Shown here piece after piece: positions 18,009-41,507 of a stretch of 50,677 nt of DNA. The position numbers were made by a program, and so were the translations under genes. Source of the stretch: an uncultured Nitrospirota bacterium. Lineage in GTDB: Bacteria; CG2-30-53-67. The DNA lies in assembly GCA_947259355.1 (NCBI GenBank), contig CAMYMF010000029.1:1-50677 (forward strand), given 5' to 3'. The first letter of the stretch is position 1; every line of letters starts with the position of its first letter. The notes below the pieces were generated by a model. That model worked only from the letters and a program-made list of their open reading frames with translations, made no database searches and was not told the DNA's origin.

Positions 18009-20333
18009 ATGAAACCTGTCAAACGCATTGCCATCGTCGGGGGAAACAAAGAGGGGCTCAGTCTCCTTCCGCTGCTCGAAAAAGACCCCACTGTCGGCGT
18101 CGACCTCATTGTGGATCGCAACCGTGAAGCCCTGGTCTTTAAACTGAATGAACTCGGATTTCAACTGGCCCGGAGATTCAAAATCCGGGTCAGCGCCAAC
18201 CTGGAAGACCTGATTGCAGAAGAGCAGCTCGATCTGATCATTGACGCCTCCTCCGATCCCGGTACCCGGTCCTTTTTGGAAAAACAGGATTTCCGCAGCG
18301 CGGAGATCATCAGCGCCCTGAGCGCCCACCTGCTGTGGGAATACCGGGGTCGGGAAGTTCCGGAGACCGACCGCTCGAGACACGCGAAACTTCTGGCCAG
18401 CCTGAATGAAATCGTTGAGGCCGTGAACCTGACCAAGGACAAGAAACAGGTCTCCGAAATGATCCTCAAAGTGGCCATCGAATCGACAGGCGCCGACAAT
18501 GGGTCGTTGATGCTGCTCGACCCGGAAGAGCAGGTGCTGAAAGTGGAGGTGGCCGAGGGGATCCCGCCGGAAGTGGTGCCGAATATTCGATGCCCCCTGG
18601 GCGAGGGCATCGCCGGGAAAGTCGCCCGGGAAGGCAAACCGCTGCTGCTCTCGGGCAGCGCCGACGACCGGACCTTCAAAATCCTGCGTAAGCGGGAGGA
18701 TGTCAAATCGGCACTCTGCGTTCCCTTGACCATCAATGGCGAAACGGTGGGCGTGCTCAACCTCAACAACTTGGAGGACCTGGAAGGGTTCAACGAAGAG
18801 GACCTGGCCTTCATTACCAAACTGGCCGCCTTCGATGCCGAAATCCTGCTGAAATCCCAGGAATACGAAAACCTGCGGGGCGACGCACGGACCTTTCGGA
18901 TTTGGAAGCAGCTCAATGACGAACTGCGCGCCTCGCAGCCTCTGGGCGAGAAGCTTGTGCGGGTTTGCCGGGCGCTGTCGGAGCATTTCAGCCAGTCCGT
19001 CTGCTCCATCTATCTACTCGACCCGGACAGCCATGAGCTCACCCTGCGGGCGAGCAGCCTGAAATCTTTCTCGCCGTCCTTCGGCCACCGGATTCGCCTT
19101 CAGGAGGGGATCGACGGCTGGGCGGCCAGTGAACAGGAGGTGGTCGTTCTGAAGGAACACCCACCCATCGATACCGGTACCAACAAGACGTTCATGTCGA
19201 TCCCGCTTATTACCGACGGCCGAATCACCGGCGTCATGAACATCCAGCTTGTCTCCTCCCAGGGTCTGAGCGAAGAAGAAGAGGCTTTCCTCCGGGACGT
19301 CGGCGGCCACCTGTCTCACGCCATCAGCAGCGCGCAGAAAGAAGATCACGCCAACCTGCGGGCCACGCGGTTGGAGGCCATCAACGAGGCCGGCATCAAC
19401 ATCGTCTCCATCATGGACATGGACAAGCTACTCGAACTCATCCCGCCGTCAGCGGCCATGATCATGGACGCCGACGGCTGCGTTCTTCGCCTCCGGGAGC
19501 GGGACGGCCTGCTCAAGGTGCGCTCAACCTATGCCATGTGGGAGGATGAGATTCAGGACAAAGTGCTCGAACTCGACGGGACCCTCTGTGCAAAAGTACA
19601 GCAGTCCAAGCACGCCCTGCATATCCATGACCTGGGTGAGGCCAAAGGGTACGAGCAGTTTGGACGGGTGGTGAAATCGGTGCTGTCCTTCCCGCTGATG
19701 GACAACGGCGTCGTCCACGGCGTCCTGTCCATTTACGACAAGATTCCCAAAGGCGCCTTTCACGTCGTCTCATTCAGTGAAGACGACATGGAGATCTTCA
19801 AGAAGTTTGTTCACTTTGTGGAGAAAGCCATCGTCAACGCCCGGGGCCGGGGCCACTCACAGATCTTTCTCAACTATGACAAGCTGACCGGCCTGCCCAA
19901 CGAGGCCGCCTTCCGGCGGGAGATCCAGAACGAAATCAACCGATCCAAACGACACGAGCGCCGCTTCATCCTCCTCACCCTGCTTTGGAGTTACCATCGC
20001 CCGGGCATCTCCAAATACGATGTGGAGCTTCGAAACAACATCGTGCTGGAGATCGCCGATGTGCTCAAGGAAAGCATCCGTGAATACGATACCCTCGCCC
20101 GCACCGGCCCGCAGAAGTTTGCCATGCTTTTTCCCGAATCGTCAGAGAACATTCATGATCTCAGCACCCGCCTGACGCGTGCCATCCGACGGAGAAAGAA
20201 GGCGTCCGATCCCCCCTTCGCCGAGCTCGCTCTGAGTCTGAAATTCGGCTATGCCATCTTCCCCGACGACGGCACCGAATTCGAGGCCATCGTCGGTGGT
20301 GCAAACCGCCTACGCCTGGGCGCGAAGGTTTAA
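18009..20333 (+). CDS. Multi-GAF signalling protein with degenerate GGDEF domain
   Basis: Protein of 774 aa, cytoplasmic. Order: a Rossmann-like N-terminal domain (VKRIAIVGGNKEGLSLLPLL to about residue 115), a GAF domain (about 140-285), a second GAF (about 315-440), a third GAF-like domain (about 455-610) and a C-terminal GGDEF fold (about 620-774). The GGDEF fold starts FLNYDKLTGLPNEAAFRREI as usual, but the signature loop reads GPQKFAML instead of GGDEFxxx, so cyclic-di-GMP synthesis is not expected. It may bind nucleotide or act as a dimer switch. ATG follows GGCC-rich sequence 50 bp after the REC-DUF4388 gene; the two may work together. Confidence 0.85.
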   Translation: MKPVKRIAIVGGNKEGLSLLPLLEKDPTVGVDLIVDRNREALVFKLNELGFQLARRFKIRVSANLEDLIAEEQLDLIIDASSDPGTRSFLEKQDFRSAEIISALSAHLLWEYRGREVPETDRSRHAKLLASLNEIVEAVNLTKDKKQVSEMILKVAIESTGADNGSLMLLDPEEQVLKVEVAEGIPPEVVPNIRCPLGEGIAGKVAREGKPLLLSGSADDRTFKILRKREDVKSALCVPLTINGETVGVLNLNNLEDLEGFNEEDLAFITKLAAFDAEILLKSQEYENLRGDARTFRIWKQLNDELRASQPLGEKLVRVCRALSEHFSQSVCSIYLLDPDSHELTLRASSLKSFSPSFGHRIRLQEGIDGWAASEQEVVVLKEHPPIDTGTNKTFMSIPLITDGRITGVMNIQLVSSQGLSEEEEAFLRDVGGHLSHAISSAQKEDHANLRATRLEAINEAGINIVSIMDMDKLLELIPPSAAMIMDADGCVLRLRERDGLLKVRSTYAMWEDEIQDKVLELDGTLCAKVQQSKHALHIHDLGEAKGYEQFGRVVKSVLSFPLMDNGVVHGVLSIYDKIPKGAFHVVSFSEDDMEIFKKFVHFVEKAIVNARGRGHSQIFLNYDKLTGLPNEAAFRREIQNEINRSKRHERRFILLTLLWSYHRPGISKYDVELRNNIVLEIADVLKESIREYDTLARTGPQKFAMLFPESSENIHDLSTRLTRAIRRRKKASDPPFAELALSLKFGYAIFPDDGTEFEAIVGGANRLRLGAKV

Positions 20334-20337
20334 CCCC

Positions 20338-20362
20338 GATATTGCATGAGTGATCGTCACGC
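20338..20362. repeat. Dispersed repeat, family 2 copy B
   Basis: Begins GATATTGCATGA, then GTGATCGTCA. It starts 4 bp after the stop codon of the GAF-protein gene and runs in the same direction as copy A, so the 2.36-kb gene is bracketed by direct repeats. Confidence 0.5.
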
Positions 20363-26369: not shown

Positions 26370-26531
26370 GGTGACCTCCCTGCTGCCACCGGGACTTTTC
26401 GCCCGGGCAACGGGTGAAACGCTCCGTATTCGTAACGGCCAGGTTGCTTCTATTTTCTCGCAGGACAAGGCGGGAGGAGCGCAAAACCGGCGGCGTGTTT
26501 TTCATCCGTTGAGGATTTGAGCACCGCAACA

Positions 26532-26600
26532 CCTCAAGATACCTTGCTTTAATAGCCGCTGAAAGCGGCAACAATTATATTAAGCGAGGCACGCGACGCT
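26532..26600. repeat. Dispersed palindromic repeat, family 1 copy B
   Basis: Starts CAAGATACCTTGCT as in copy A at 5150. Stem GCCGCT-GAA-AGCGGC differs from copy A (GCCGTC-GCA-GACGGC) at paired positions on both sides. Outer segments GCTTTAATA and TATTAAGC also pair. Ends in AAGCGAGGCACGCG as in copy A. Confidence 0.6.
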
Positions 26601-26707
26601 CCGTACGTCCAGCGGGCCCCGCTTGTGTTCCAGGGCGACGCTGTGTTAGAGTCCTGCCCGGCGAGCGGCGGGGGTGCTGTGCAGCCCGAATGAGGAGAGG
26701 AGCGGCC

Positions 26708-29960: not shown

Positions 29961-30116
29961 CGAATTAGTTTCCATCCGGAAACGGCCCTTTTCCCGATGG
30001 GCTGCGTTCTCCGCGGGCTTACTTCCTCGACGTACAATGAGTACGCCTCGTCGTAAACCCTTGTGCGGCCTGGCTCATCGAAAAAATTGCTCATTTCCAA
30101 ATTGGAAACTAATTCG
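29961..30116. mobile_element. MITE-like element with terminal inverted repeats
   Basis: The left end CGAATTAGTTTCCA and right end TGGAAACTAATTCG are perfect inverted repeats, and weaker pairing continues inward (GGAAA, TTTT, CGATG...GC on both arms). About 156 bp, no coding capacity, with a small inner hairpin CGTAC/GTACG. TTTCC...GGAAA motifs occur at both ends, and CGTGTCC...GGACACG follows at 30115-30143. It fills most of the 29913-30334 gap; the remainder holds nothing recognised apart from the pdxA ribosome site. Confidence 0.5.
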
Positions 30117-30334
30117 TGTCCGTCTTGATTTCCGGATGGACACGAAATAGTAAACCTTATATCACCTTTTTCCGCTTTGTCAAACCCTTAAATCTGCCTG
30201 GTCACCCTGTTTTGCGCGCAGCCCGAAACCGGCCTCGGCCCGTGGCAATCTCAACTGATCACGGGTCTGTTGCGGTTGACAGAGAGCCCAGCGGGCTGTT
30301 ACTGTCGGATTCACTGAAACACGTAGGAATAGCC

Positions 30335-31364
30335 GTGAGAACGCCGATTATTGCATTGACCATGGGAGACCCCGCGGGGGTCGGCCCGGAAATTATCTTG
30401 TCTCTTCTGGCGCGACCGGAGGTTTATGAGGCCTGTCAGCCAGTGGTCATCGGCAGCGGGGCGGTTCTGGAGCACTCGGCCCGTCTGCTGGGGAGAACGA
30501 ATCCCTGCCGTCCGATTCAGGACCCCCAGGATCTCTCTGGCACCCCGAAGTGTGCGGGGCTCATCGATCTCGCGAACATAGACCCCAAGGCATATCGCCC
30601 GGGGAAAGCGTCAGCCGAGGCCGGCCGGGCCGCCGTCGAATATCTGCTGGCCGCCATCGATCTGGCCGTGCAGCGGCGGGTTGCGGGCCGTGCAGCGGCG
30701 GGTTGCGGCCATCGTCACGGCCCCCATCAACAAGGAGGCCATTCATCTCGGCGGTTATCGCTACGCGGGGCACACGGAGATCCTGGCGGAAAAAACAGGC
30801 GCCCGGGAGGTCGGCATGATGCTCATGGGGGGGCCCATTCGTGTCGTGCTCGTGACCACGCACCTGTCGCTGCAGCAGGTACCGGGAGCCCTTTCGACAG
30901 CGGCTATTTCCCAGAAAATCCGCCTGGCCCACGAGGCCATGCAGGCCCTCGGCTTCGACGCACCCCGCATTGCCGTGGCCGGACTGAACCCCCACGCCGG
31001 TGAAGGCGGACTGTTCGGGGATGAAGAGCACCGGCTCATTGCGCCGGCCGTGGCACAGGCCCGTCAGGCAGGCCTCAGCGTCTCGGGGCCGCTACCGCCG
31101 GACACCCTCTTTCATCACGCATACCACGGGGCCTACGAGGTGATCGTCTGCATGTACCACGACCAGGGGCTGATCCCACTGAAAATGATCGCCTTCGATC
31201 GGGGGGTCAACGTGACGCTCGGGCTGCCGATCATCCGGACTTCCGTGGATCACGGAACGGCCTATGATCTGGTGGGAAGCGGTCAGGCAAGCGATGGCAG
31301 CCTCTACGAAGCGCTGCTGGTCGCGCTTGAGCTGGCCGCACACAGAAAAAAAAGGCCGGCGTAA
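30335..31364 (+). pseudogene. pdxA: 4-hydroxythreonine-4-phosphate dehydrogenase, disrupted by a 22-bp tandem duplication
   Basis: Pyridoxal phosphate synthesis enzyme. GTG 30335 with TAGGAA upstream opens RTPIIALTMGDPAGVGPEI and continues in frame to AAIDLAVQRRVA. There an exact 22-bp duplication (30664-30685, 30686-30707) shifts the frame, and the rest of PdxA (AAIVTAPINKEAIHLGGY, HTEILAEKTG, AGLNPHAGE with metal-binding His, and MYHDQGLIPLKM) is in another frame to 31364. Deleting one repeat unit restores a continuous 335-aa PdxA of normal length. As written the gene is broken. It could be a real slip mutation, a reversible expansion, or an assembly error. A start codon inside the second part (30681) would give only an inactive fragment. 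Confidence 0.9.
30664..30707. repeat. Exact 22-bp tandem duplication inside pdxA
   Basis: Two adjacent identical 22-bp units beginning GGCCGTGCAGCGG; 22 is not a multiple of three, so the extra copy causes the frameshift. Confidence 0.95.
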
Positions 31365-35120: not shown

Positions 35121-36806
35121 TTAGAGCATGTCGATAAATCCGCAGGGGCACTCCTCTGCACACTTCTTGCACCCCTGACAGGTGTCGAGGTGAAACTCGT
35201 AGTGCTCGCCGAACGGCAGGTCTTTGGACAGTTTCTTCACCGCGCTGTCGGAACAGAAAGTGAAGCAGTTGTCACAATCGAAGCATCGGCCGCAGCTCAT
35301 GCATCGCTTGGCCTCCTCGATGGCCTGCTCCTGCGTCAGGGCAAAACGGATCTCGTTGAAGTTTGTCTTGCGCTCCTCCGGTGGCAGGAAGCGCTCCTGC
35401 GTCCGCTCCAGCGTTACATAGTGTCCCAGATTCATCTTGTCCGTGCGCACCACCGGCCAGTCGGGATTCTTCTCGATACCGTTGCCCTGCAGGTGCGCGT
35501 GGATGGATGCAGCCGTGTTTCGTCCGATGCCGATGGCCTCCGTGGCAATGCCGAGCCCGATGGTCACGTCGCCACCGGCCCACACGCCGTCCATCTCGGT
35601 CTTGCCCTCATCGTCCGCGTTGATCCAGCCGCGATCGTTCTTGAACTGCTCCAAGCCTTCGTAGTCCGGGGCCTGGCCGATGGCCGAGATGACCGCGGTG
35701 GTCTCTACCGTAAATTCTGAGCCTTCGATGGGCACCGGGCGCCGCCGACCGGAGGCATCGGGCTCTCCCAGTTCCATGCGGAGACAGGTCATGGCCGTGG
35801 CCCGTCCGTTGCCGTCCTTGGTGATTTCCACGGGGGCGGCGAGGAATTCGAAGTTGATCTTTTCCTCTTCGGCCAGGACGATATCGTGGTCAATAGCGGG
35901 CATCTCATTGCGGGTCCGCCGATAGAGGATGGTCACATCCGCACCCAGCCGCAAAGACGTCATGGCCGCATCGATGGCCGTGTCCCCGCCGCCGATGACA
36001 ATCACCTTGTTGCCGATGTCCACTTTCTCCCCGGCACTGATCCTGTGGAGAAAATCCGCACCGGTCCAGACATTGGTCGCATCTTCTCCGGGGATATTCA
36101 TGTCCCATCCGGTGTGGGCGCCAATGGAGACGTAGATGGCTTGGTACTCTTTTTTCAGATCGTCGAAACTGATGTCCCGCCCGATCTTCGTGTCGTACTT
36201 GATGCCAACGCCGAGATCGGCAATCTTCTGTATTTCCGCATCGAGTACATCATCGGGAAGCCGATAGATGGGGATGCCGAAGCGGAGCATCCCGCCGCCC
36301 TTGTCAAACATCTCAAAGACCGTGACCGGGTATCCCCGCCGCGCCAGCTGATAGGCACAGGAAAGGCCTGAAGGACCGGCCCCAATGACGGCGACCTTCT
36401 CCGCGTGGCTGTCGCCGTTGAGCTTTTTCAGCGCCAGCTTGTTCTCGATTCCATAATCCCCGATGAAACGTTCCATGTTGTTGATGCCCACCGCCCGATC
36501 TTTCTCCTTGCGGTTGCACTCCGCTTCGCAGGGATGGGGGCAAACCCGACCCATGACAGCGGGGAAAGGATTCTTGTCGGTGATCGTGTGCCACGCTTCC
36601 TCAATGGCTTCCTCATGGGACCAGGCATAGTTGTCCGTCTGGGCGATCTTCACCAGATAGCCCCGGATGTCCTCGCCGCTGGGACATGCGTACGTGCAGG
36701 GCGGCGTTTTGAAGGTGTACTGAGGTCTCAGGGTGGAACTCTCGGCGCCCCGTCCGCCGCGTCGAATCCCGATCTTTCGCTTTATCTTTCTCACCACGAT
36801 CGCCAT
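35121..36806 (-). CDS. dsrL: DsrL-type iron-sulfur flavoprotein, NAD(P)H oxidoreductase of the Dsr system
   Basis: Protein of 561 aa. N-terminal FeS motifs TPPCTYACPSGEDIRGYL and MGRVCPHPCEAECNRKE are followed by FAD site VAVIGAGPSGLSCAYQL and nucleotide site VIVIGGGDTAIDAAMTSLRLGA. The C-terminal two-cluster ferredoxin has CMSCGRCFDCDNCFTFC and CQGCKKCAEECPCGF. This order and the NFNEIRFALTQEQAIEEAKRC linker match DsrL, which in Allochromatium moves electrons between NAD(P)H and DsrAB. It is shorter than the about 650-aa DsrL of phototrophs. A GltD or AegA-like enzyme is the alternative, but position after dsrABD favours DsrL. ATG with AAGGAG upstream. Confidence 0.85.
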   Translation of the reverse strand: MAIVVRKIKRKIGIRRGGRGAESSTLRPQYTFKTPPCTYACPSGEDIRGYLVKIAQTDNYAWSHEEAIEEAWHTITDKNPFPAVMGRVCPHPCEAECNRKEKDRAVGINNMERFIGDYGIENKLALKKLNGDSHAEKVAVIGAGPSGLSCAYQLARRGYPVTVFEMFDKGGGMLRFGIPIYRLPDDVLDAEIQKIADLGVGIKYDTKIGRDISFDDLKKEYQAIYVSIGAHTGWDMNIPGEDATNVWTGADFLHRISAGEKVDIGNKVIVIGGGDTAIDAAMTSLRLGADVTILYRRTRNEMPAIDHDIVLAEEEKINFEFLAAPVEITKDGNGRATAMTCLRMELGEPDASGRRRPVPIEGSEFTVETTAVISAIGQAPDYEGLEQFKNDRGWINADDEGKTEMDGVWAGGDVTIGLGIATEAIGIGRNTAASIHAHLQGNGIEKNPDWPVVRTDKMNLGHYVTLERTQERFLPPEERKTNFNEIRFALTQEQAIEEAKRCMSCGRCFDCDNCFTFCSDSAVKKLSKDLPFGEHYEFHLDTCQGCKKCAEECPCGFIDML

Positions 36807-36955
36807 AGGACATACTCCTTCTTATCTGTTGCTGTTAGAATGTTCTCCAGATTGGGCTCCGGTGCCCGAAAGTGCTCCACAGCGCGTCCTCGCACCCGCC
36901 GGCACGGCCCATCAGGCCCCTGCGGCTTGTCACAGTCGAAGGTCAAGGAGCCTAC

Positions 36956-36996
36956 CTTTTCCGCTGTTGTCCCCCTCCCGCACAACAGCGGAAAAG
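36956..36996. promoter_or_regulatory. 15-bp perfect inverted repeat between dsrD and dsrL
   Basis: Arms CTTTTCCGCTGTTGT and ACAACAGCGGAAAAG around an 11-nt loop, in the 278-bp gap between dsrD and dsrL. No T-run follows on either strand, so it is not a standard terminator. It more likely acts as an mRNA-stabilising or processing hairpin, or an operator. The rest of the gap holds only the ribosome site of dsrL. Confidence 0.7.
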
Positions 36997-37084
36997 ACAG
37001 CCGGGCGCGTCTAACGGGAGGCGACCGACCGCCTGAAACATCACCCTGGCCGACGGGAGTGGCTCTGCGTTCGCCCGGGTTGGC

Positions 37085-37339
37085 TTAATCGCTCTTGGCA
37101 GCGCCTTCTTCACCGGGCAGCGCGCTGAAGCTTCCCCCGGCGTAACCGTAGACACAGCGTCCTGAGTCCATGAGTTCCCGGATGGCGGCCTTACAGTCCT
37201 TCTTGTTAACCTTGTCGCCGTGCTTGCTGATGATCTCCTTGGTCAAATCGCTCGCTTTGAATCGCTTCTTCCCGGCGTATTCCTTGACCATGTTGTACAT
37301 CTCGTCCGCAATCTGGGCAGTGGGCATGGCATCTGACAT
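37085..37339 (-). CDS. dsrD: DsrD, sulfite reductase-associated protein
   Basis: Protein of 84 aa with the winged-helix-like DsrD fold: EMYNMVKEYAGKKRFKASDL, then NKKDCKAAIRELMDSGRCVY. DsrD has been reported as an allosteric activator of DsrAB in sulfate reducers and is widely used as a marker of the reductive pathway. It starts 15 bp after the true dsrB stop, with GAGGAGG upstream. No change in base composition against its neighbours is visible. Confidence 0.93.
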   Translation of the reverse strand: MSDAMPTAQIADEMYNMVKEYAGKKRFKASDLTKEIISKHGDKVNKKDCKAAIRELMDSGRCVYGYAGGSFSALPGEEGAAKSD

Positions 37340-37354
37340 TTCTCAGGCCTCCTC

Positions 37355-38369
37355 TTAGAATTTGATCTGCGCCGAGCGTGCAAAGGTCTCGCCGGCGTGA
37401 CGGAAATCGTCAATGTGATATTTGGTGAATTCGAAGCCGGTCATATCAAAGAACCTCGGCCAGCCAATCCGCTCGATCCACTCGCCGACAGCGGGGCGGA
37501 TTGTTCGGCAGGAAGGGATGGGCCAGTTTGGTAAACATCGGTTCCGAGCGGGCATTGGACACCTTACCGCCCACCCAGAGAGACACACCGTCATTCAACG
37601 CATCGGCGATGGGCATGGCCGGACAAACGGTGTAGCAATTCGCACAGAACATACAGCGGTCCTCATCGACCTTGACGGTCTGCTTGCCTTCGACAGTGGT
37701 CGGCCGGATGGCCGCGGTCGGGCAGGACGACACGGTCGTCGGGATCTCGCACACCCGGGAGACCTGCTCATCCTTGATTTTCGGCGGTCTCCGGTGGATC
37801 CCCAGGATGGCGATGTCGGAGCAGTGCACAGCACCGCACATATTGAGGCAGCAGGCCGCCGCGAGTTTCAGCTTGTAGGGAAGCTTCATGTCGACGAAGT
37901 ACTCATAGAGCTCATCCATGGTCGCCTTGACCAGACCGGACACATCGGTCGCGGCGGAATGGCAGTGGACCCATCCCTGGGTATGGATGATGTTGGAGAT
38001 GGCGTTGCCCGTACCGCCGACGGGGTAGCCCTGCGCCTCAACGTCCTTGATCAGGGGCTCGATGCTCTTCTCCTTGTCCGTGAGGAACTCGACATTGTTC
38101 CGGCTGGTGAACCGGAGGAACCCATCGCAGTACTTGTCCGCCAGGTCGGCGAAGAGGCGGATCACGTCCACACTAATGAGGCGGGGTGATCCGACGCGAA
38201 TGGAATAGATCTTGTCGCCGCTCTCTGCCACATGGACCATGACGCCCGGCTTGAGGTACTCGTGGTATTTCCACTGGCCATAGTTCTTCTTGATAACCGG
38301 ATGGAGGAACTGCTCATAGTGGGGCGGTCCAATATCTGTCTTTCTCGGTGCACTCGGTTGTGTTGCCAT
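37355..38369 (-). CDS. dsrB: Dissimilatory sulfite reductase beta subunit, C-terminus frameshifted
   Basis: Beta subunit of siroheme sulfite reductase. Seen: [30 protein letters not shown] for the siroheme-linked cluster and ferredoxin [12 protein letters not shown]. The frame is correct from ATG 38369 to PFLPNNPPR at 37491, then runs on to a spurious stop at 37446. The genuine C-terminus ([20 protein letters not shown] to AQIKF, stop 37355) is in another frame. Compared with D. vulgaris DsrB about 24 residues that follow PPR are missing, a loss of about 71 nt. No cofactor ligand is lost, but the subunit tail is. dsrD follows the true stop by 15 bp. Either a real mutation or an assembly fault. 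Confidence 0.88.
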
Positions 38370-38445
38370 CGGTTCTTACCTCCTATTGATCGGTTCTGAC
38401 TTTTCAGATGAATGATGGAGCCGCTGCCTGTCTCACATGTCGCTA

Positions 38446-39651
38446 CTAACCCGTACCGTCATCCTCGAAATACTCTTCGTAGAAGATGTACGGATTGGTC
38501 CGGGGGTGCTTCACATGTTCAGGCTGGGGATCCACCTCGATGGCTTCCAGGAAATTGCCGAGACCGACCCGCTCGATACACTCACCGATCCGCTCGCGGT
38601 TGACACCGTGCTCATCCCAGAATTCCCAGATCCGCTCCATGAGGTCCTTGAACTCCTGGTAATCGTCGTCCTTGTCCATCTTCATGAAGGGGACCAGAAC
38701 CGACGAGAGCAGGGCCCCTTCGATGATGGGCGCCTTGCCGCCGATAAGAATCGTCGCCCCTGTGTCCTTTCCGGGCCGCAGGGCCTTGGGCATGGCATTG
38801 ATGCAGTGCATGCACCGGTTACACTGTCGGTTGTTGATGTGAATTTCCTTGCCGTCGTACCGCATGCAGGCTGTCGGGCACTTGCGGGTGACATCGGCAC
38901 GAATGTCCATCCCGGTGTCCGCGTAGGCCTTCACCGCGGCCTGGTCGATCCGGATGTCGTCCCGCCAGGTTCCGATCACCGAGAGGTCCGACCGGGCGAT
39001 GGACGCCACGCAGTCGTTCGGACAACCGGCAAACTTGAATTTCCACTTGTAGGGGAAGGCGGGACGGTGCAACTCATCCTGGTATTCCATGGTGATGTTG
39101 TAGCAAACATCCATGGCGTCGTAGCAGGCATACTCGCACCGGGCCATCGCATTGCAGCAACTGGGCGTTCTCACGTCCGAGCCAGACCCCCCGAGGTCCC
39201 ACCCTTTTTCGGTCAGTTTCGCGAAGATCGGCTCCAGCTCCTCCGACGTGGTTCCCAGAAAGACACAGTCTCCCGTGGAGCCGTGCATGTTGGTCATCCC
39301 CGATCCGTGGGCCTCCCAGATATCGCAGAGGTCTCGCAGCGCCTGAGAGGTGTAGAACCAGCCTGAGGGCTGATTGACGCGCACGGTGTGAAAGTGCGCG
39401 ACATCGGGGAACTTGTCGGGAGAGTCGGAGTACCGGCCGATGACACCGCCGCCATATCCGATCACGCCGACGAGGCCGCCGTGCTTCCAGTGCCCGACGC
39501 GCTCCTTGTAGGAAAGCTCCAATTGCCCCAGCAGGTCGTTGACCATGGGCTTTCTCTCGGCAATCTTCTTCATGTCCGTCACGAAACTCGGCCACGGCCC
39601 CTTTTGCAGGTCATCCAGAAGAGGCGTCTCTCTTAATTTGTGATCTGCCAT
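38446..39651 (-). CDS. dsrA: Dissimilatory sulfite reductase alpha subunit
   Basis: Alpha subunit of 401 aa, intact. Seen: [67 protein letters not shown] and [11 protein letters not shown] for the siroheme-coupled [4Fe-4S] site, and ferredoxin [15 protein letters not shown]. It reduces sulfite, handing a trisulfide to DsrC, or runs in reverse in sulfur oxidisers. It is shorter than D. vulgaris DsrA (437 aa) mainly because the loop before the KCPTAC motif is short. ATG with AAGGAG 9 bases upstream. A terminator lies just upstream of its leader, so it is probably transcribed separately from dsrMKJOP. Confidence 0.96.
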
Positions 39652-39730
39652 GCTCGGTTTCTCCTTTCATTGCTCCCCGACACCGCCGGGAAATTCCATA
39701 TGATAACCAAACCAAAACCTTTATAGATCT

Positions 39731-39750
39731 AAAAACGGCCTGGCCCAGGC
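39731..39750 (-). terminator. Intrinsic terminator between the HEAT-repeat gene and dsrA
   Basis: On the minus strand GCCTG-GGC-CAGGC followed by CG and five T residues (39735-39731), 6 bp after the HEAT gene stop. A short stem, so perhaps only partial termination. Confidence 0.55.
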
Positions 39751-39756
39751 ATTGCG

Positions 39757-40419
39757 TCACCGGTTGAGATGTGCCAAAGCTTCCCGGGCAATTGCGGCCA
39801 CCGTCTTTTCGTTGAGTTGCTCGTCTTCATACAACAGCGTAACGCCGGCATCCTCGGTGAGCCCCTGCAGCCGCGCTGTCGCGTCGGCACCACCGATCTG
39901 CCCCAGGCTCCAGGCGGCCATGCCCCGAACCGCCGCGTCGGGGTCCTCCGTGAATGAGAGCAGCACGGGCATGACCTTTTGCACCCGCTTCGGTTTGCCC
40001 CCGCCGAGTCGTCCGAGGGCCCACAGCACACCGACGAGGATCTCCGTGTTGCGGTTCGGCGGGCGGCAGGTCTCGGGATCCTCGATATAGTGGATGACGA
40101 CGTCTACGCCGTGCTGCACGAGCCCGATGTTGTTCCGCCCGATCTCACCGATACACTCAGGGGCGCCCCGCCCGATGCTTCCGGCTTCATCGTTCAGGGA
40201 CCAGATCAGCCGGTCCACTTCCTGTGCAATGAGATCGGGTCGCTCGGCGGCAAGCCATCCAAACATGCTCACGGTCCGCCACTTGACCAGCGCCTCTTCC
40301 GCGTAGAGCAGGGACCGTAACGACCGAACCGTTTTGCGATGGGCGCCGAACGTCACCAGTACTTCCGGATACTTTCTGGCCCGCAGCAGTTCCACAAGCG
40401 CTTGCCGGGATCTTTTCAT
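39757..40419 (-). CDS. HEAT-repeat protein linked to the dsr cluster
   Basis: Protein of 220 aa made of HEAT/PBS-lyase-like helical repeats: TVSMFGWLAAERPDLIAQ, ILVGVLWALGRLGG and AAVRGMAAWSLGQIGGAD. No catalytic motif, signal or membrane segment. Such repeats mediate protein-protein contacts. It starts 6 bp after dsrH, so it is translated with the sulfur-relay proteins, and a terminator follows. Inference: an adaptor or scaffold for DsrEFH, DsrC or an iron-sulfur partner; function unknown. Confidence 0.8.
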   Translation of the reverse strand: MKRSRQALVELLRARKYPEVLVTFGAHRKTVRSLRSLLYAEEALVKWRTVSMFGWLAAERPDLIAQEVDRLIWSLNDEAGSIGRGAPECIGEIGRNNIGLVQHGVDVVIHYIEDPETCRPPNRNTEILVGVLWALGRLGGGKPKRVQKVMPVLLSFTEDPDAAVRGMAAWSLGQIGGADATARLQGLTEDAGVTLLYEDEQLNEKTVAAIAREALAHLNR

Positions 40420-40425
40420 GTCGGG

Positions 40426-40719
40426 CTACAGCCAAGAGTGAGGACGGTGTTCCTCCACGAGCCGGACAAAACCGGCATAATCACACACCGTCACTCCGTC
40501 GACCACCCCCTCGATCCCGCGGGCCTTGAGATCTGCCTGCAGCGCGTAGACAGGATGGCGCCCAACGGTCTCCTTCATCCGTCCTTCAAGGGACGTGCCC
40601 TTCTTGACCGCAAAGACACCGTCCTCAATGAGCAGAATCGGATCATCGGCCTGGGCAATACGAAGACAGGTGTCCAGATTTCCATTCGAAAAAGGGGACT
40701 TATTCACGATGTGAAGCAA
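40426..40719 (-). CDS. dsrH: DsrH, sulfur-relay protein (TusB family)
   Basis: Protein of 97 aa. MLHIVNKSPFSNGNLDTCLR closely follows the DsrH N-terminus; C18 corresponds to the sulfur-carrying Cys20 of Allochromatium DsrH, which enteric TusB lacks. IEDGVFAVKKG and VCDYAGFVRLVEEH also match. In sulfur oxidisers DsrEFH passes persulfide sulfur to DsrC. Third gene of dsrE-F-H; 33 bp after dsrF. Confidence 0.9.
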   Translation of the reverse strand: MLHIVNKSPFSNGNLDTCLRIAQADDPILLIEDGVFAVKKGTSLEGRMKETVGRHPVYALQADLKARGIEGVVDGVTVCDYAGFVRLVEEHRPHSWL

Positions 40720-40752
40720 GGTATCTCCTCCTCAACCAATGCGGACTCGGCG

Positions 40753-41124
40753 CTAGAACGGGAGCAGCACATCCTGTTCTCCCATGGCCTTGCGAAGTGT
40801 GGCGCCGTCGACCACCTCCACATCTACGATCAGATCATCCGGCGTCAACCCGCGCTTCTCCAGAGATTCCTTCTCCACATATCGATTTTCCACACCGTAG
40901 GCCTCCAGCACGCGGAAGGTGGCGGAGAACTCCTTCACGCCCAGCTCCGAGGTGTCCTGTCCTTTCTTGAGGGAAAAGACGGCATCGTCCAGAAAGGCGG
41001 CACTGATTTCCTGGTCGTAGGCCCCGAAAATCAGGACCACTTCCAAGCCTTCGTAGGCGTAAATGGACCCGTGCGGCGCCCGCCGATTCACAAACATGAT
41101 TTTTCTCGGTGCTTGCTCTTCCAT
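40753..41124 (-). CDS. dsrF: DsrF, sulfur-relay protein (TusC family)
   Basis: Protein of 123 aa. VNRRAPHGSIYAYEGLEVVL, GAYDQEISAAFLDDAVF and GVKEFSATFRVL are typical DsrF/TusC segments. It is the structural partner in the DsrE2F2H2 hexamer and carries no catalytic Cys in characterised homologs, nor here. It begins 26 bp after dsrE. Confidence 0.92.
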   Translation of the reverse strand: MEEQAPRKIMFVNRRAPHGSIYAYEGLEVVLIFGAYDQEISAAFLDDAVFSLKKGQDTSELGVKEFSATFRVLEAYGVENRYVEKESLEKRGLTPDDLIVDVEVVDGATLRKAMGEQDVLLPF

Positions 41125-41150
41125 ATGATGGCGACTCCTTGTGGATTCCC

Positions 41151-41507
41151 TCAGTCCCCGAAAGTGATCAGCCGGTCCGATTCGATGCAGAGTTCACTGA
41201 GCTGTCCCAGCCCGTCGATACGGGCATGGTCGATCAGAACGTCTGAATTGATCCCACGCCGCTTGGCCGCAGCGACACAGACGATCAACGGGACGCCCTT
41301 GGCACCCAGTTCAGACCAACGCTTGCTGATATGACGGTCGTCCGCAGGGATGTCCATCAGCTTGGTCGTATTGGTCACGCCATCGTTGTAGAAGAAGACG
41401 CCCGTGATCTTATGCCCCTCGGCCAGTGCCGCCTGAATAAAATGGTAGGCACTGTCCGAGGCCTCATGATTGTAAGGGCCCTCCTGAACGAGAATTCCGA
41501 ATGTCAT
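41151..41507 (-). CDS. dsrE: DsrE, sulfurtransferase (TusD family)
   Basis: Protein of 118 aa. MTFGILVQEGPYNHEASDSA, GVFFYNDGVTN and LIVCVAAAKRRG match DsrE/TusD, with C77 aligned to the active-site Cys78. In sulfur oxidisers it receives sulfur and, with DsrH, passes it to DsrC; in E. coli the TusBCD version serves tRNA thiolation. Location directly after dsrC and the conserved DsrH Cys support the Dsr role. GAGGAG 5 bases before the ATG. Confidence 0.92.
   Translation of the reverse strand: MTFGILVQEGPYNHEASDSAYHFIQAALAEGHKITGVFFYNDGVTNTTKLMDIPADDRHISKRWSELGAKGVPLIVCVAAAKRRGINSDVLIDHARIDGLGQLSELCIESDRLITFGD

Follow-up and report, generated by a model that had tools for sequence, protein, structure and literature searches.

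Introduction

The dsrAB genes are the standard marker of dissimilatory sulfur metabolism. For the phylum CG2-30-53-67, two studies describe reductive and oxidative DsrAB in one genome, accompanied by DsrD, DsrL-2 and DsrEFH (Diao et al., 2023, PMC10591310; 2024, ISME J, PMC11406059), and a mixed content of oxidation and reduction markers is already on record for this phylum. In uncurated metagenome-assembled genomes (MAGs), as Chen et al. (2020, PMC7111523) set out, local assembly errors propagate incomplete or incorrect genes, and perfect read support serves as the test.

Here, we describe a broken dsrB gene in the draft genome of an uncultured Nitrospirota bacterium of this lineage (GCA_947259355.1). 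The MAG comprises 3.1 Mb in 94 contigs, is 89.7% complete and contains a single dsrB. We analyzed the contig that carries it, CAMYMF010000029.1, over a stretch of 50,677 nucleotides (positions 1 to 50,677, forward strand), referred to as the window in the following. Judging from sequence comparisons with close and more distant relatives, we consider it probable that the 71 nt lacking from this gene were lost to a local assembly (or consensus) fault of the metagenome draft.

Results

The break in dsrB

As reference we used locus L033 of a genome of the same genus, G001:C88 (CALZGC010000088.1, uncultured Nitrospirae FCS_M_CG2-30-53-67_02), which shares 87-88% DNA identity with the window across the dsr region and whose intact dsrB encodes 361 residues. 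From its start at 38369, the window's dsrB encodes a normal DsrB for 293 residues, the last of which are PFLPNNPPR; 14 unrelated residues follow, and then a stop codon at 37446-37448. The genuine C-terminus (...QIKF) is read in another frame up to a stop at 37355-37357 and is 93% identical to the relative's final 44 residues. The ATG of dsrD lies at 37339, 15 bp past this true stop. Two collinear BLASTN pieces against G001:C88 abut in the window (37489/37488), whereas the relative has 71 nt between them, which is not a multiple of three. Likewise, the relative has 25 codons (residues 294-318) from PPR to GEWIER, where the window keeps only 4 nt. An earlier note on this DNA, which had described a dsrB shorter by about 71 nt, with about 24 residues absent after PFLPNNPPR and its C-terminus displaced towards a true stop at 37355 just ahead of dsrD, is therefore borne out in its geometry, the figures being exactly 71 nt and 25 residues against this ortholog. 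Table 1 collects the coordinates.

Table 1. Features of the dsrB locus and of the other loci discussed; positions without a contig label refer to the window.
Feature	Position	Strand	Remarks
dsrB ORF	37446-38369	-	307 aa, early stop
dsrB codons 1-293	37491..38369	-	in frame, conserved
Junction with 71 nt missing relative to the same-genus ortholog	37488..37489	-	position uncertain by 1-2 nt
Out-of-frame dsrB tail with premature stop	37446..37490	-	as read in the ORF
True dsrB C-terminus and stop	37355..37489	-	other frame than the upstream part
dsrA	38446..39651	-	intact, 401 aa; TIGR02064, 581 bits
dsrD	37085..37339	-	intact, 84 aa; named from context and length, no NCBIfam match
pdxA	30665..30708 (gene 30116-31364)	+	exact 22-bp tandem duplication, frame break; halves match PF04166 in different frames
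NtrC-like regulator	G000:C2 near 19,923 (L123, L195)		58 nt lost, frame-broken relative to the same-genus genome
Radical-SAM-like gene	G000:C15 12,810 (L126)		loss of about 19 coding nt at a single N
Second dsrAB loci in relatives	G001:C53 (L115), G002:C90:30692-31543 (L117), G003:C16, G004:C37, G005:C186

At the junction itself, neither an N nor a repeat is visible in the window sequence, and a comparison by eye of the deletion ends in the relative found no obvious direct repeat (microhomology). A search elsewhere in the MAG for the intact missing segment yielded DsrA, at 31%, as the best other match; the segment itself was not found.

To place the break in a wider context, we compared 97 related dsrB loci, 80 from one search and 17, part of the second set of matches, from another, with a few genomes counted twice. 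In 96 of them, one alignment runs from the N-terminal region through the site, free of gaps in residues 294-318 and of stop codons; the 97th (L016), truncated at the 5' end, likewise gives one uninterrupted alignment (residues 121-360). As far as these sequences reach, the lesion is confined to this one genome among the loci examined. One further peculiarity lies at codon 284 (37518..37520, minus strand), nine codons ahead of the last conserved one on the near side of the junction: the window encodes His here, while the position is occupied by Ile (74), Val (16), Thr (4) or Ala (2) in all 96 relatives. This His fits poor local sequence, without proving it.

The truncated product

The reading frame lacks the last 68 of the relative's 361 residues. 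With 413.7 bits, the truncated DsrB still scores above the curated TIGR02066 cutoff of 341.5 bits, but its match covers only positions 1-274 of the 341 of the profile, and the ORF does not contain the C-terminal remainder. Similarly, the Pfam NIR_SIR match ends at profile position 107 of 158 rather than at 149. The lost part is found end to end in solved DsrB chains, for example 2v4j_B. All cysteines of the relative's DsrB lie within codons 1-293 and none in the lost part, so the cluster ligands remain in the truncated protein. Nevertheless, if the deletion were real, the subunit would presumably be non-functional.

The dsr cluster and its neighbors

On its minus strand, the window encodes dsrM, dsrK, a dsrJ-like ORF, dsrO, dsrP, dsrC, dsrE, dsrF, dsrH, a HEAT-repeat gene, dsrA, dsrB, dsrD and a DsrL-like oxidoreductase; we take the genes named dsrJ, dsrD and dsrL to be such from their position, length and domain make-up. 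Apart from dsrB, the cluster (dsrMKOPC-EFH-A-D-L) is open and constrained. The earlier claim of an otherwise intact Dsr system is thus correct for the genes tested, but it does not extend to the second dsrAB of family relatives, which we searched for and did not find in the MAG. A second dsrB, with about 53-60% identity, is present in all five family relatives (G001-G005; one partial), and the second dsrAB of G002 is followed by its own dsrL-like gene. Since the MAG is only about 90% complete, the missing second dsrAB is not evidence of loss. A possible trace of its synteny near the end of G000:C50 was rejected: a gene there is a 66% homolog of a neighbor gene in G002, but its own neighbors differ and no dsr gene adjoins.

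Three further observations concern the window at large. The span 35121-41507 combines dsrEFH, dsrD and the DsrL-like gene beside dsrAB, that is, markers of sulfur oxidation and of sulfite reduction on one contig. Positions ~26430-26605 hold a repeat of about 175 bp that recurs in more than 10 full or partial copies (87-95%) across contigs of the same-genus genome, and a motif of about 30 bp (~20330-20359) has about 20 occurrences there. A search of the window for Rfam elements found none.

Selection on both sides of the junction

The strongest alternative to a fault, although we think it unlikely, is a real and very recent 71-nt deletion, fixed or present as the majority allele, which inactivates DsrAB in a cluster that has not yet decayed. 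The locus itself has features in its favor: the junction is clean sequence without any N, and the loss of frame in the tail is precisely what a deletion would produce. By contrast, the relaxed selection that would accompany such a loss is not seen in dsrB, dsrA, dsrD or the electron-transfer genes. In Nei-Gojobori counts with the same-genus ortholog as reference, dN/dS is 0.043 for dsrB codons 1-293 and 0.030 for the 43 codons that follow the junction, next to 0.047 for dsrA and 0.092 for dsrD; over all 19 segments compared, from the cluster and its neighbors, the range is 0.03-0.14. Neither a raised dN/dS nor a further stop or frame change, the marks of a decaying pseudogene, was found in the dsr genes. 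Because the values are low on both sides and resemble that of dsrA, both parts have stayed under selection up to the present or nearly so, and the lesion is accordingly either very young or not biological. Nothing in these sequences points to a release of dsrB from selection of any duration.

The distribution of changes between lineages is slightly less favorable to a fault. Changes were assigned with four outgroup loci, leaving out 5 ambiguous differences in dsrB and 10 in dsrA. In dsrB codons 1-293, 6 changes fall to the window lineage and 3 to its sister; in the 43 codons past the junction, each lineage has 1. The His at codon 284 is one of the six. The window lineage's 7 dsrB changes are slightly more than the sister's 4, while dsrA has 5 in each.

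Other frame-breaking lesions in the draft

We also took a census of frame changes flanked on either side by a coding substitution pattern, comparing six MAG stretches (169,677 bases, of which 146,353 aligned) with the matching G001 contigs in both directions and covering 121 and 118 non-overlapping genes. It flagged five events in the MAG and one in G001, of which one per direction was dropped on inspection: the change at G000:C5 6848-6853 lies between genes, and that at G001:C214 5852-6092 lies upstream of the start of a gene that we take to be aroC-like. In these hand-chosen stretches, with the window sampled owing to its dsrB lesion, there remain four conserved genes frame-broken by changes of 19-71 nt in the MAG versus none in G001, over about 146 kb. 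If both drafts were equally prone to such lesions, all four would fall into one named genome by chance with a probability of 1/16; the sample is small, and the difference is suggestive only.

Besides dsrB, the affected genes are pdxA, a regulator that is presumably NtrC-like, given its motifs, and a radical-SAM-like gene that we take to be MqnE/CofH-like. The duplication in pdxA lies about 7 kb from the dsrB lesion on the same contig. An exact 22-bp tandem duplication is a common kind of real mutation. Being typical of slippage, this one lends some support to a real deletion in dsrB as well; it may have arisen by real slippage or be another assembly fault. N runs number two in 228,895 bases of the MAG (1 kb counted twice) and none in 197,332 bases of G001. 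One of the two, 17 bases long, may be something other than a join, but the single N on C15 more likely is one, and the loss of about 19 nt at this place indicates that coding bases are indeed lost at joins in this draft. That unrelated conserved genes are similarly struck elsewhere in the draft argues against a real deletion in dsrB, as does the finding of no dsrB in the MAG besides the broken copy.

Discussion

The earlier note had left the choice between a crippling lesion and a sequence or assembly fault. Both alternatives were sound, but the evidence of selection on both sides of the junction and the three other lesions in the draft favor the fault, and a real lesion is the less likely of the two. 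We infer assembly rather than mutation as the cause because several mid-sized frame breaks affect conserved genes that are unrelated to each other, in one case at a visible join, and because selection on dsrB is intact. The structure of dsrB is inconsistent with its orthologs while selection is preserved on both sides, and similar faults occur elsewhere in the draft and are absent from a comparable one, albeit in small numbers; these are features expected of a local assembly error. During assembly, two ends would have been joined with tens of bases dropped, and the organism itself would have a normal dsrB of about 361 residues in the normal order dsrA-dsrB-dsrD.

A real deletion would allow a bolder reading, which we regard as improbable: it would just have removed the only DsrAB left in a lineage of CG2-30-53-67 that has relatives with two sets, one reductive and one oxidative, and we would be looking at a sulfite reducer at the first step of pathway loss, with dsrMKJOP, dsrC, dsrEFH, dsrD and dsrL still intact. 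Still less probable is a mixture of strains with intact and deleted dsrB alleles, of which the assembler took the deleted one or a path belonging to neither; co-occurring strains do confuse de Bruijn assemblers, according to a passage in PMC7111523, but a search of the MAG contigs revealed no further dsrB fragment. A programmed event that yields a working product (ribosomal frameshift, bypass or a split DsrB of two polypeptides) can practically be dismissed, for although a downstream 79-aa ORF (37355-37594) holds the true C-terminus, it starts in unrelated sequence, and frameshifting would restore the frame without supplying the 24-25 missing residues that all 96 relatives keep.

With an assembly fault as the preferred reading, the biology behind the dsrB observation is probably ordinary. 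Left unrecognized, however, the fault would lead automatic annotation to list DsrB as truncated, or the pathway as lost when it probably was not, and the other truncated genes of this draft, pdxA among them, call for caution.

Compared with known systems, the locus resembles the local assembly errors of MAGs, at least as characterized in part of PMC7111523, in having wrong or missing bases within an otherwise well assembled contig and, as a result, an incomplete protein gene. It differs from those cases in that the dsrB fault was inferred from relatives, whereas the defining test given there is a lack of perfect read support. As for its gene content, it differs from the reductive dsrAB-dsrD-dsrL-2 cluster of CG2-30-53-67, as presented in the relevant section of PMC10591310, in its broken dsrB and in that a second, divergent dsrAB was not found in the MAG; it shares with that cluster the gene order, in which dsrD and a DsrL-like oxidoreductase come after dsrAB. 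At the protein level, finally, the last 68 of 361 residues are out of the reading frame, unlike in the DsrB proteins represented by TIGR02066 and the PDB chains 2v4j_B and 3mm5_B, but residues 1-293 follow these proteins in order, including the cysteine-rich and ferredoxin parts.
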